DNA from: Candidatus Amesbacteria bacterium
GTDB taxonomy: Bacteria > Patescibacteriota > Microgenomatia > CAZETR01 > Amesbacteraceae
Reading direction: 5' to 3'
Assembly (NCBI GenBank): GCA_027371535.1
Contig: DAHXMV010000007.1
Location: forward strand, 1 to 48,550
DNA length: 48,550 nt
The stretch's first letter is position 1; every line of letters begins with the position of its first letter. A model generated the notes under the pieces. That model made no database searches and had not been told where the DNA came from. It saw nothing but the letters and a program-made list of their open reading frames with translations. Of this stretch, positions 42,124-48,161 are shown in pieces. Both the position numbers and the translations under genes were made by a program.

Positions 42124-42840
42124 TTAATTAAGCATTTTAAGACTTGCAGTATCAATGACATAAACAAAATTTTCGGGGGCGGATTGGGGACAATCGGCGT
42201 TTAAGGCATCGCAATCGGGCGGGGTTTCAAGGACGGTAAACAATATTCTGCGGTCATCCAGACGAACAGAGGTAATATAGGAATTATAGTGTTGGAGATT
42301 GGTAAATTCCTTAATAGGGGTGAATATATTGAATGGGGAAAGGCTAACAAACAAACCAGCCCGGCCAAAACCTCCCGCATCACTGGAGGAACTATTTATA
42401 ACCAGGAATTTTTCTTCAGGGCCCCAATACAGATTTTGCCGAACGTTAAAATTAAAATTTTGACCACTGATGATGTCTTTATGATCTGAAACCCGGAAGA
42501 TGGAGGGGGGTAGACCACCTTCATAATTAGTGTAGTTAGTGGCGAGATAGTCTTTTTTGGGGCTAAATACCGGCCGATCAAAGGATATGAGCCAAGCGGC
42601 ATCAGATTTGTCGATTTCATAGATAATTGAACTTTTACCGGTAGAATCTATGTATTTTAGGGCCTGGCGAGGCAATAACTTTTGATCTGAGGAGAACCCC
42701 GGGGTAACGTACCCCAAATTTACGATTTCAAATCCGGGTCCGGGTAACTGTAAAAAATAAAGGCAGGTAACCAGGGAAATAAAGATAAAAAGGAGGGGTA
42801 AGATGACGGGAAACCGGGATGGGGAAGCATCAGTAGCCAT
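42124..42840 (-). CDS. Membrane-anchored protein with propeller-like domain
   Basis: 238 residues from ATG 42840; the frame continues further upstream but would lie wholly inside galE, so the shorter gene is chosen. One membrane helix near the N-terminus (about 12-32) precedes an outside domain of repeated strands ([32 protein letters not shown]), reminiscent of a TolB/WD-type propeller segment. Two cysteines near the end may pair. It overlaps galE by 11 nt and so is translated from the same message. Function unknown. Confidence 0.65.
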
Positions 42841-43837
42841 GGGGGTTTTGTGATTGCCAACGCCAGGTATCGACACACATTTCATTAATAGTTTTTTTGG
42901 CCCGCCAGCCAAGTTCCTTTTGGGCCCTGGACGGATCGGCAAAACACAGGGCCACGTCGCCGGGGCGGCAGGGGACAATTTTATAGGGGATTTTTTGGCC
43001 GGAGGCTTTTTCAAAAGCCGTGACCAACTCCAGGACACTGATTCCTTGGCCTGTACCCAGATTGTAGGTGACCAGGCCCGGATTTTGGGACAATTTTTCC
43101 AGGGCTTTGATATGGCCGGCTGCCAAGTCCGAGACGTGGATATAATCCCTGATACCGGTACCATCGGGGGTGGAATAGTCGCCGCCAAAAATTTGCAGTT
43201 CTTTAAGTTTGCCGACAGCCACCTGAGAAATATAGGGCATGAGATTATTGGGGATGCCGGCAGGATTTTCACCGATTGACCCTGACGGGTGGGCACCGAT
43301 AGGGTTAAAGTATCTCAAAATGGCGATATTTAAAGACGGGTCGGCGGCCGATACGTCTCTTAATATATCCTCGATCATGAGCTTGGTGCGGCCGTAGGGG
43401 CTGAAGGTTTTCAAAGGAAAATCTTCGGTGATGGGGACTTTATCGGGCTGACCATAGACCGTGGCAGAGGAGGAGAAGACCAGGTTTTTGACACCGGCGC
43501 CGATCATGGTTTCCAGGAGGTTGATTGTCCCAACCAGGTTGTTACGGTAATAAGCAAGCGGCATACGGACGGATTCACCGACGGCTTTTTTCCCGGCGAA
43601 ATGGATAACGGAGTCATAATGGGTCTTTGAGAAGACTTGTTTTAAAGCAGGCTGATCCAGTAAATCAGCCTTGATAAACTCCAGTTTTTTACCGGTAATT
43701 TTTTGAACCCGGTTTAAGGGTTCTTCCTTACTATTGGAAAGATTATCGATGACGGTAACGGCAAAGCCGGAATTTAGAAGTTCCACACAGGTGTGGCTGC
43801 CGATATAGCCGGCGCCGCCGGTAACCAAGATATTCAC
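42830..43837 (-). CDS. galE: UDP-glucose 4-epimerase GalE
   Basis: 335 residues, extended SDR family. NAD-binding [10 protein letters not shown] at the N-terminus, S-S-S-A-T-V-Y-G with the catalytic Ser/Thr region, Y-G-R-T-K (the Y-x-x-x-K pair), and the GalE hallmark [12 protein letters not shown]. It interconverts UDP-glucose and UDP-galactose (or the N-acetyl forms), supplying sugar nucleotides for the glycosyltransferase island. GTG at 43837 is the start; TAAATT lies 6 nt upstream, so it is leaderless. It is the first gene of a three-gene minus-strand operon with 42124-42840 and the methyltransferase. Confidence 0.96.
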
Positions 43838-43881: not shown

Positions 43882-44211
43882 ATGAAGAAGTTACTATTTA
43901 GAACTTTAGCGGTGGGGGTGGCGGCGTACGTGGTACCGGGGGTGGGGGTAACAGGGATTTGGATTGCGCTGGCCGTGGCAGTGGTGCTGGGAATACTGAA
44001 TGCCTTTTTAAGGCCGATACTGCTGATTCTAACGATTCCCATAAACCTGATGACACTGGGGCTGTTTACTCTGGTAATAAACACGGGCATAGTGATGCTG
44101 ACATCCGTAATCGTACCCGGTTTTCATGTCACCGGATGGTGGGCGGCGTTTTTGTTTTCCGTAGTGGTGTGGCTGGTGAATTGGTTTCTTGAGGCTTTAG
44201 AGTCGGGATAA
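43882..44211 (+). CDS. Phage-holin-family IV / YvlD-like membrane protein
   Basis: 109 residues with four membrane helices and the conserved block N-A-F-L-R-P-I-L-L-I-L-T-I-P-I-N-L-M-T-L-G-L typical of the PF04020 family (Mycobacterial 4-TMS holin superfamily). Despite the family name, chromosomal members such as YvlD are membrane proteins of uncertain role and not lysis genes. GGAGG plus TAAAAT precede the ATG. It stands alone, divergent from galE. Confidence 0.88.
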   Translation: MKKLLFRTLAVGVAAYVVPGVGVTGIWIALAVAVVLGILNAFLRPILLILTIPINLMTLGLFTLVINTGIVMLTSVIVPGFHVTGWWAAFLFSVVVWLVNWFLEALESG

Positions 44212-44537: not shown

Positions 44538-44823
44538 TCCCCTGTAGCTCAATGGTAGAGCAGATCCCTGTCGGATTTGGCAGCCCCCTGAAGTAATTTG
44601 GGGAGGAAAAACCAGGCTAATTCGGGGAACTCCGGATATTATCCCGCTTCACTGGATCATCCGGACAATCCCGAGCTAAACGATGTACTGAATTGTACGT
44701 CGAAATGTGTAGAGACTATATACCTGGCTCCCGTTTAGCGGGATGATGAGATAGTCCAGACCTTTTGGCAACAAGAGGATTTCTGTAAGGATAAGGTTCG
44801 GGGTTCGAATCCCTGCGGGGGAG
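44538..44823 (+). tRNA. tRNA-Asn(GUU) interrupted by a group I intron
   Basis: 5' exon 44538-44571 and 3' exon 44786-44823. Acceptor TCCCCTG pairs with CGGGGGA (44816-44822) with discriminator G; D-arm GCTC/GAGC; anticodon stem GATCC/GGATA (one mismatch at 27-43); T-arm CGGGG-TTCGAAT-CCCTG; CCA not encoded. Joining gives loop CT-GTT-AA, anticodon GUU, with the intron between U35 and U36. TCC-start acceptor and G73 fit Asn. TATAAT at 44512-44517 is the promoter. Confidence 0.88.
44572..44785 (+). other. Self-splicing group I intron (214 nt, no ORF)
   Basis: P1 is formed by exon CTGU and internal guide GCAG (44579-44583 region), with the conserved U-G pair at the 5' splice site. The R/S core is present: AGAGACTATA (44711-44720) and ATAGTCC (44751-44757) form P7 (GACTAT/ATAGTC), with a P8-like hairpin CCCG-TTTAG-CGGG between. 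The intron ends in G at 44785 (omega G). It is compact, like other bacterial tRNA introns. Confidence 0.9.
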
Positions 44824-45593: not shown

Positions 45594-45705
45594 TTAATTT
45601 CCTAATACTCTCGTTTATATTGAAACTTGGGTTTGGGAGCACTTAATCCTATAGTAGTTTTGATAAAGGGTAGTTTGAATCATAAATTTGCTGTATAATT
45701 GGGAA

Positions 45706-45900
45706 GGCGACAATGGAGTTGACACTCCGGAGCTGTAGGAAGAAAGAGAGCAATCTCAACTAGAACCTACCGGGAAGTTCCCGTAACAGAACAGAGGCGT
45801 GTCGGAAACGGAGCGTCTACAAGACCAAAAACAAGGTGGCACAGCGAGAGACCTCGCCCTTGCGAGACTAAGAAATTAGTCCATGAAGGCGAGGTTTTTT
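45706..45900 (+). promoter_or_regulatory. T-box riboswitch leader of aspS
   Basis: TATAAT (45694-45699) starts the leader. The T-box antiterminator is CAAGG (45832-45836), bulge TGGCACAG (45837-45844), helix CGAG/CTCG, and CCTTG (45858-45862). The bulge UGGC matches GCCA, the end of tRNA-Asp and tRNA-Asn (G73). The competing terminator is ACCTCGCC (45851-45858) with GGCGAGGT (45888-45895), an inner GACTAA-GAAA-TTAGTC hairpin, and six T (45895-45900). Stem I is short; the specifier could be AAC (45758-45760, in an internal loop) or GAC (45721-45723). Uncharged tRNA would favour aspS expression. Confidence 0.85.
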
Positions 45901-45926
45901 AGTGGTTAATTTAGTATGATAAATAC

Positions 45927-47237
45927 ATGAGGACTTACACCTCACAAGTAAAAGAAAAAGTCGGCCAAGAGGTCGAGCTGTTTGGGTGGGTACACACTGT
46001 CCGAAGCCAAGGTGGTATCAAGTTTTTGGTTCTGCGAGATATTCAGGGAATAGTACAGGTAGTAGTATCCAAGAAGGAGTCTCAGGCATTTGAAGTACTG
46101 GAGAAAGCGACTCTGGAATCAGTGGTACGAGTGGAGGGAATTGCCAAAGAGGAGAAACAAGCTCCGGGGGGAATCGAAATAAGTGCAACTGGTATAGAGG
46201 TGCTTTCTCTGGCTGATGCCCAATTGCCGATTCAGGCTGTGGAGAAAGGTGAGAACGAAGCCGAACAGCAAATCAGATTGGACTGGCGTTGGATTGACTT
46301 GAGAAAGCCTGGGAAAGCCTTAATTTTTAAAGTGTGGACCACAATGGAACAAGCTTTTAGAGAGTATTGTGTCTCTAACGGTTTTATAGAAATCCACTCT
46401 CCCAAGACGGTTATTACTTCTACTGAATCCGGTTCAGAGTTATTTGAAATCAAGTACTTCGACAGGAAAGCCTACTTGGCCCAGTCGCCACAACTGTATA
46501 AGCAGATGGCGATGGCAGCTGGTTTTGAGAAGGTATTTGAAGTGGGGCCGGTTTTTCGGGCTAACCCATCATTTACTTCCCGTCACGACACGGAATTTAC
46601 TATGTATGACATCGAAATGTCCTTTATCAAATCGCACCATGACCTGATGGCAGAGGAAGAAAAAATGATGGTAGCAATGTTTGCTGCCATAAAAGAGAAG
46701 TATGGTCAGGCCGTAAAAGCAGCTTATGGTCAAGAAATAACAGTTCCAACACTGCCTTTCCCGAAACTTACTTTGGGGGAGGCTAAAAAGCTTTCAGCAG
46801 AACTTAAAATACCCAATGAACGGGGTGAAGATTTAAGCCCGGAGGAAGAGCGGGCAATCGCCAAATATATAAAAGAGAAAGAAGGACATGACTTTGTGTT
46901 TATTTACGACTGGCCAGCCAAGGTGAGGGCGTTTTACAGCATGAGGTCGGAAACCGACCCTACTTTGTCCAAGACTTTCGATTTGTTATACCGAGGACTG
47001 GAAATTACCAGCGGGGCACAGCGGGAACACCGACCAGAGGCGCTAAAGAAACAAATTGAGGAGAAAGGTTTCAAAACTGAGCCATTTGAGAGCTATTTGA
47101 ATTTCTTTAAGTATGGTTGTCCACCACACGGTGGCTTTGCTCCCGGACCCACTCGAATGTTGATGCAAATGTTGGGAATTGGTAATGTTAGGGAAGTAAC
47201 TTATCTTTATAGGGGAGTAAATAGATTAACCCCATAA
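45927..47237 (+). CDS. aspS: Aspartyl-tRNA synthetase, archaeal-type, probably non-discriminating
   Basis: 436 residues, far shorter than bacterial AspRS (about 590) because the GAD insertion and C-terminal extension are missing, as in archaeal/eukaryotic enzymes. OB-fold 1-105; class II motif 1 around F-I-E-I-H-S-P-K; motif 2 V-F-R-A-N-P-S-F-T-S-R-H-D-T-E-F; motif 3 G-F-A-P-G-P-T-R-M. In the anticodon-binding loop H (G-W-V-H-T-V) stands where discriminating archaeal enzymes have W, and Q-A-P-G-G carries the Pro of relaxed enzymes, so it probably charges both tRNA-Asp and tRNA-Asn, with GatCAB (not in this window) finishing Asn-tRNA. A T-box leader precedes it. TATGAT also lies 6 nt before the ATG, a possible second leaderless start. 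Confidence 0.92.
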   Translation: MRTYTSQVKEKVGQEVELFGWVHTVRSQGGIKFLVLRDIQGIVQVVVSKKESQAFEVLEKATLESVVRVEGIAKEEKQAPGGIEISATGIEVLSLADAQLPIQAVEKGENEAEQQIRLDWRWIDLRKPGKALIFKVWTTMEQAFREYCVSNGFIEIHSPKTVITSTESGSELFEIKYFDRKAYLAQSPQLYKQMAMAAGFEKVFEVGPVFRANPSFTSRHDTEFTMYDIEMSFIKSHHDLMAEEEKMMVAMFAAIKEKYGQAVKAAYGQEITVPTLPFPKLTLGEAKKLSAELKIPNERGEDLSPEEERAIAKYIKEKEGHDFVFIYDWPAKVRAFYSMRSETDPTLSKTFDLLYRGLEITSGAQREHRPEALKKQIEEKGFKTEPFESYLNFFKYGCPPHGGFAPGPTRMLMQMLGIGNVREVTYLYRGVNRLTP

Positions 47238-47363: not shown

Positions 47364-47396
47364 GTTTTAATATAACTTCTGGATTAAAATGGGGTG

Positions 47397-48161
47397 ATGA
47401 ATGTAAATGAAATAGTTGGAATATTAGACAAAGAATATCCGGGAAGAACAATTGTATTAAATACGCCTGAAAATACTGAAGAGGTAATTTGTGAGATAGA
47501 GCCTGCGAGTGAACACTCAGATTATAGTGTGGCAATTGCATACATTAGGAAGTCGAAGCCACATAAACATTTGAAAACAATAGAAGAGTATCAGGTAGAA
47601 GAGGGGGTACTAACTCTTTACTTGGACGGGGTAAAAAGGGAATTCAAGCAAGGACAAATATATGCAGTTTTGCCAGGGACCATACATTGGGCGGAAGGGG
47701 ATTGGGTGAGGGTGAAAGTGGTTTCAAAGCCAGGGTGGACATTGAATGACCATATACTTGTGGATGAAGCAGTATCTGCGGGTGGGGTAATTATTCAGGA
47801 TGGGAAACTGCTAGTCATAAAGTTTCCTCATGCAGATGGGATTACTTTTCCGAAGGGTCATGTTGAGGAGGGTGAAACATATAAAGAGGCGGCTTTACGT
47901 GAAGTGAGAGAAGAAACGGGATATAGCAATTTGGAGATTGTGAGAAAGCTGGGAGTTGTTACCAGACCGGCGACTGAAAAAGATGGACGGGTAGTAATTA
48001 AAGATATTCATCTATTTTTGATGAAAATTGTCGGAGATTCCAAAGGAAAGGCAGATGAAGAAACAGACTGGCTGACAATGGAGGAAGCACAAAAAAGACT
48101 GTTTCCACAAGAAGCTGATTTTCTTATCCGGAAAAGAAATTTGTTAATTAGCCAGCGATAA
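47397..48161 (+). CDS. Cupin-Nudix fusion hydrolase
   Basis: 254 residues from ATG 47397; TAAAAT lies 6 nt upstream, which supports this start over GTG 47394. Residues about 30-110 form a cupin-like barrel (H-K-H-L-K-T-I-E-E-Y, L-P-G-T-I-H-W), and residues about 125-254 a Nudix domain with the box G-H-V-E-E-G-E-T-Y-K-E-A-A-L-R-E-V-R-E-E-T-G-Y. Nudix enzymes hydrolyse nucleoside diphosphate linkages; the cupin could sense or bind a sugar or nucleotide-sugar. Physical link to aspS is loose (divergent small ORF between). It lies inside the direct-repeat-flanked segment. Confidence 0.88.
   Translation: MNVNEIVGILDKEYPGRTIVLNTPENTEEVICEIEPASEHSDYSVAIAYIRKSKPHKHLKTIEEYQVEEGVLTLYLDGVKREFKQGQIYAVLPGTIHWAEGDWVRVKVVSKPGWTLNDHILVDEAVSAGGVIIQDGKLLVIKFPHADGITFPKGHVEEGETYKEAALREVREETGYSNLEIVRKLGVVTRPATEKDGRVVIKDIHLFLMKIVGDSKGKADEETDWLTMEEAQKRLFPQEADFLIRKRNLLISQR

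Follow-up and report, generated by a model that had tools for sequence, protein, structure and literature searches.

A T-box of Clostridium acetobutylicum reportedly accompanies extra genes for aspartyl-tRNA synthetase (AspRS) and GatCAB, which are said to belong to a tRNA-dependent route to asparagine, and it is reported to bind two tRNAs. T-boxes that act on transcription generally need a long Stem I with a platform for the tRNA elbow, and an ultrashort Stem I has been described among T-boxes that act on translation (PMC7583486). The ileS switch of Nocardia farcinica combines a K-turn with a specifier codon in the apical loop (PMC10651847). Here, we describe a leader from Candidatus Amesbacteria, a member of the Patescibacteria (CPR), that lies in a 48,550-nt stretch of DNA (the window). 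Its sequence makes it highly probable that this RNA belongs to the transcription-attenuating T-boxes, with a Stem I of ultrashort form; it would sense tRNA-Asp and control a second AspRS of the archaeal, probably non-discriminating type.

Architecture of the leader

The leader spans positions 45701-45900 upstream of the AspRS gene, and its Rfam match, fold, and antiterminator/terminator pair identify it as a T-box, as originally predicted. Its elements and the gene that follows are as follows.

45694..45699, + strand: TATAAT, probable -10 element, read directly, directly 5' of the leader
45704..45734, + strand: ultrashort Stem I with a probable K-turn base (GC ... GAGC); fold, register test, and covariation
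45715-45718/45725-45728, + strand: 4-bp helix of Stem I, paired in 98.6% of cells
45719-45724, + strand: apical loop of Stem I, 6 nt
45721..45723, + strand: specifier codon GAC (Asp); fixed-register test and a genomic tRNA-Asp(GUC) with G73
45735..45770, + strand: Stem II with S-turn-like strands (GGAAGAAA / CUAGAAC); alignment, pairs covary
45771..45792, + strand: Stem IIA and IIB pseudoknot (GUU/AAC); 85.7% (IIA) and 62.5% (IIB) of cells paired
45795..45818, + strand: Stem III, predicted from the minimum free energy (MFE) fold
45832..45862, + strand: antiterminator with T-box bulge UGGCACA (UGGC at 45837-45840); Rfam, fold, and covariation
45850..45900, + strand: intrinsic terminator with a 9-bp outer stem and six U; fold, -23.3 kcal/mol; excludes the antiterminator
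45927..47237, + strand: aspS2, archaeal-type, probably non-discriminating AspRS, 436 aa; NCBIfam, alignment, and tree

The Rfam T-box model RF00230 matches positions 45701-45864 across its whole length, with 36.7 bits and an E value of ~1e-6. The score is far below the gathering score of 93, which is a score threshold and not a biological feature, so Rfam defaults list no T-box at this site. The Rfam check proposed with the original prediction thus gave a full-length match but not a score above gathering. The fold of the leader beats all 200 dinucleotide shuffles (z -4.2), and a phylum model built from 18 short leaders, the window leader included, scores it at 115 bits.

All tested helices covary in the alignment of these 18 leaders. 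The covariation score is 0.569 versus 0.200, and 88.8% of cells are paired versus 68.4+-1.3% in shuffled and at most 47.9% in slid alignments; the shuffle control may carry a relatedness bias, but the slid control agrees. A wider set of 27 leaders gives 83.2% versus 64.2%. All four pairs of the Stem I helix and all three of IIB change on both sides, and both antiterminator helices covary. The Stem II S-turn and the IIA/B pseudoknot are thus present, IIB being the weaker element.

The antiterminator, which is the MFE fold and carries the UGGN motif in a 7-nt bulge, has an energy of -10.5 kcal/mol as a hand-written structure and -11.1 kcal/mol as the MFE. It is mutually exclusive with the competing terminator that overlaps it. 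The bulge ends in UGGCACA and not in UGGNACC, as in a few relatives. Stem I measures ~30 nt and has no distal tRNA-elbow platform, which counts against a transcriptional T-box (PMC7583486). Its design equals that of the N. farcinica ileS switch (PMC10651847), as would be expected of a translational T-box of the actinobacterial ileS class. We nevertheless consider translational control extremely unlikely, since the terminator ends in a U run and overlaps the antiterminator, the AspRS start codon lies 26 nt 3' of that run with no visible sequestrator, and many related leaders share the U-tailed arrangement. The same TATAAT hexamer is found a few bases 5' of several related leaders; a consensus promoter scan at 45694-45699 gave nothing above chance.

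The specifier codon and the tRNA probably sensed

Stem I of the window leader reads GGCGACAAU-GGAG-UUGACA-CUCC-GGAGCU, with GAC in the apical loop. We set the specifier register at the triplet that ends one base short of the 3' strand of the helix. In 27 of 33 related leaders, this triplet codes for the amino acid used by the synthetase encoded downstream, with Asp and Asn codons both scored as a match for AspRS, whereas shifted registers match in 0 to 2 of the 33. Permuting the labels 20,000 times gave a mean of 6.4 matches and a maximum of 15. The 33 leaders were chosen because a short Stem I could be seen and their synthetase was identified, and the set is therefore not blind. Automatic hairpin choice failed on six of them and was right for a seventh (L106) via the wrong hairpin; all seven carry the expected codon by eye, L115 in a differently shaped loop. 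The leaders tested come from 40 additional short ones taken from the phylum scan, whose synthetases were named by NCBIfam and, for AspRS, by BLAST. The ileS leader of G132 has the loop UC[AUC]A, and a second T-box of the source genome, on contig C3, has the same Stem I design with the loop GU[CGC]G (Arg). The canonical internal-loop position of the specifier was also tried and rejected, as its triplets (CCG/UCC) fit neither an Asp nor an Asn codon.

By the fixed-register test, the window specifier is GAC and not AAC, the choice that the original prediction had left to be made, and it matches the AspRS gene that follows. The source genome encodes a tRNA-Asp(GUC) whose G73 complements the UGGC bulge. 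The bulge was correctly predicted to suit a tRNA with G73, a base that tRNA-Asp(GUC) and tRNA-Asn share here, so it would fit a T-box that senses tRNA-Asn, in which uncharged tRNA from the neighboring gene would turn on its own mischarging synthetase. Relatives of the aspS2 enzyme do have AAC leaders, and an AAU is present on the 5' side of Stem I. However, that AAU is outside the apical loop and ends in U, the triplet in the conserved register is GAC, and the leader of the nearest relative (G001) also carries GAC. We therefore find it very unlikely that tRNA-Asn is the sensed tRNA, as had been suggested; nothing ties the neighboring tRNA-Asn to the switch.

From the architecture, covariation, codon register, exclusive folds, and gene set, all read from the sequence, we infer tRNA binding, the direction of regulation, and a dual tRNA specificity of the enzyme. 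The GAC codon in the apical loop would pair with the anticodon of tRNA-Asp(GUC). By analogy with the structure of the Nocardia ileS switch, this pairing is probably braced by Stem II and the IIA/B pseudoknot, which would replace the missing distal Stem I. The GCCA end of an uncharged tRNA would pair with the UGGC bulge, the antiterminator would form, and AspRS would be transcribed; with charged tRNA, the terminator, as the more stable structure, would prevail. The aspS2 product would make Asp-tRNA-Asp and probably Asp-tRNA-Asn, and GatCAB would amidate the latter.

The synthetase, its origin, and the neighboring tRNA-Asn

The aspS2 product scores 519 bits against the NCBIfam model for aspartate--tRNA(Asn) ligase (NF003483; cut-off, 353). 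The source genome holds a second, native AspRS (on contig C33) that also passes with 462 bits, and the model therefore cannot tell the two copies apart. His24 and Pro80 of aspS2 align with W26 and K85 of T. kodakarensis AspRS, where we take His and Pro to be the states of relaxed specificity; the archaeal type and both residues had been predicted. Motif 3 reads GPTR for GxER, without the usual Glu, as in most of the clade. Clade members (L036, L037, L077, L125, and others) mostly have GPNR, GPTR, or GPGR, yet are the sole such AspRS found in many genomes.

The native AspRS shares 55 to 70% identity with AspRS of the compared genomes of its own family. In contrast, the aspS2 product is closest, among those compared, to the enzyme of G001 from another CPR class (68%) and shares 55% identity with Collierbacteria copies. 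Its relatives with a name come from Collierbacteria and a further Patescibacteria MAG, which puts the window (contig C41) in CPR, most likely in the class Microgenomatia. The tree places the two AspRS of the source genome in separate deep clades (99/97 and 100/100) and groups aspS2 with G001 and L077 at a moderate 80/99. The proposed horizontal gain thus agrees with an origin that differs from that of the family's own AspRS; the implied Firmicutes source is not supported, as the copy falls among other CPR lineages. Transfer within CPR appears to be the simpler reading of these data than an ancient duplication followed by many losses. The G001 gene is arranged alike, behind a short T-box with [GAC]. 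No T-box is present at the Collierbacteria copies or at L077, which lie in a murB-aspS-glyS locus, and the T-box is therefore not tied to this AspRS clade. One locus (L198, on contig G319:C20) has three AspRS/AsnRS-like genes close together, one of them very divergent.

No AsnRS over the cut-off was found in the source genome (assembly 90% complete, 1.02 Mb), which has gatB over the cut-off and gatC, gatA, and gatB together on contig C11, away from aspS2. We extended this check to 36 genomes, comprising carriers of an aspS2-type AspRS (source genome included) and seven members of its family: none has an AsnRS over the cut-off, and every one has a gatB match, which exceeds the cut-off in 35. 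Most carriers yielded no other full-length AspRS of this kind than the aspS2 type, which must therefore serve both tRNAs in them. Genes related to aspS2 stand behind AAC (Asn) T-boxes in G267, G324, G280, G069, and G309, and AspRS genes of both clades are found behind GAC or AAC leaders. The prediction of a non-discriminating aspS2 product is thus well supported. If the enzyme were instead specific for tRNA-Asp (discriminating), and the native AspRS alone made Asp-tRNA-Asn, this would suit its answering to a tRNA-Asp signal; moreover, most of the family members checked yielded the native type alone, and these are without AsnRS. We regard such a division of labor as unlikely given the relaxed states of His24/Pro80, the orthologues that are the only AspRS of their kind in genomes without AsnRS, and those under Asn T-boxes.

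The tRNA-Asn gene lies ~0.9 kb upstream of the leader and, as predicted, contains an intron.

44538..44823, + strand: tRNA-Asn(GUU) split by a group I intron; exons 44538-44571 and 44786-44823
44572-44785, + strand: group I intron, 214 nt, between anticodon positions 35 and 36; RF00028, 62.4 bits (intron core)

ARAGORN identifies the spliced tRNA as tRNA-Asn(gtt), the only tRNA-Asn found in the assembly. It carries U1-A72, a pair that GatCAB is said to recognize. This tRNA is a probable substrate of the aspS2 enzyme and would stand outside the switch. As first proposed, aspS2 may thus make the Asp-tRNA-Asn, but the native AspRS probably charges tRNA-Asn too, and its presence makes the need for aspS2 unclear. 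A transferred Asn/Asp module that includes the tRNA gene is not borne out, as no tRNA-Asn lies beside the related AspRS genes examined, where an intron-split copy could escape detection. Elsewhere in the window, positions 43882-44208 encode a small protein matching Pfam Phage_holin_4_2 (103 bits) that adjoins galE (42830-43837, minus strand), and positions 47394-48161, just 3' of aspS2, encode a NUDIX hydrolase whose N-terminal part weakly matches a cupin.

Short T-boxes across Patescibacteria and in known systems

T-boxes were initially thought to be rarely noted in CPR, but at E<=0.01 the Rfam model has hits in 133 of the 380 genomes scanned from the phylum, 13 of them over gathering. The control genomes with matches (Bacillus, Thermus, Deinobacterium, Corynebacterium, and Lactococcus) belong to groups with T-boxes. 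Model R1, built from short leaders, also picks up long-Stem-I T-boxes; in a scan restricted to genomes of the class, 150 of the 280 have a match at E<=0.001. None of 12 related short leaders reaches the Rfam gathering score, which means that an annotation run with default settings would overlook the short variant. Part of the CPR T-boxes are canonical with a long Stem I (L006-L031, e.g., ahead of proS, argS, and tyrS). Those with a short Stem I cover at least eight specificities: Ile, Val, Pro, Gly, Tyr, Arg, Asp, and Asn.

Several other loci deserve mention. The [CGC] T-box on C3 (L004, 2074-6001) is followed by genes for a GNAT protein, for a protein of 451 aa that has no match in Pfam, and for an ArgS that carries a fused B3/4 domain at its N terminus. 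An Arg-like CGC triplet is also seen in short T-boxes that precede a similar GNAT gene in G156 (L116) and argH in G522 (L226). Two more with a CGC-like triplet (L087 and L091) lie near a Y-family DNA polymerase (IMS) gene, which is either an unexpected target or unrelated. We set aside a third Rfam match in the source genome (C42, 12 bits) as a chance hit.

The Asp and Asn leaders extend beyond synthetases. In the class of the source genome, a short T-box precedes an asparaginase-like protein (Pfam) with [AAC] in G622, which has no AsnRS match, and with [GAC] in G427, which has one; these two cases are suggestive of a pairing between an AAC specifier and the absence of AsnRS. Another with [AAC] precedes an aspartate aminotransferase-like protein in G416, where the protein scores below the equivalog cut-off, and in G609, and one with [GAC], read by eye, precedes PEP carboxylase in G439. 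We think it likely that Patescibacteria possess phylum-wide transcription-terminating T-boxes in which Stem I is reduced to the hairpin that bears the specifier, and that these T-boxes serve eight amino acids or more. Those with Asn codons would control AspRS, aspartate aminotransferase, and asparaginase because most Patescibacteria are without AsnRS, uncharged tRNA-Asn being read as aspartate shortage.

A literature search combining T-box with CPR, Patescibacteria, or Parcubacteria, outside subscription papers, found no report. TBDB mentions class I leaders with a truncated Stem I (PMC7778990), and a short transcriptional Stem I in itself may thus have precedent. What appears to be new is that T-boxes which terminate transcription have an ultrashort Stem I of the actinobacterial style, with eight or more tRNA specificities. 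These leaders extend T-box control to a phylum without earlier mention in our searches and suggest that transcriptional T-boxes can dispense with an elbow platform thought essential, making them small natural minimal tRNA sensors. Their specifier codons show directly to which tRNA the control of a synthetase responds, information that is rarely available for organisms so hard to cultivate, and they support a tRNA-dependent synthesis of asparagine in a large part of the group.

Like the C. acetobutylicum system, the window T-box occurs alongside a duplicate AspRS and GatCAB, but it has one short loop and one codon in place of binding two tRNAs, and the gatCAB genes are at a different site in the genome. 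Thermus thermophilus AspRS2 (PDB 1n9w) is likewise an archaeal-type non-discriminating second copy with His/Pro at the relaxed positions, in a clade separate from the aspS2 product. With the canonical transcriptional T-box of Bacillota (RF00230), the window leader shares Stem II, IIA/B, the UGGN-bulge antiterminator, the competing terminator, and the codon match, but it is without the distal Stem I and the internal specifier loop. The actinobacterial ileS T-boxes share its Stem I of K-turn, short helix, and apical-loop specifier, as well as its Stem II S-turn and IIA/B pseudoknot (PMC10651847, PMC7583486). They act on translation and are described for ileS, whereas the CPR leaders have a terminator platform and at least eight specificities.
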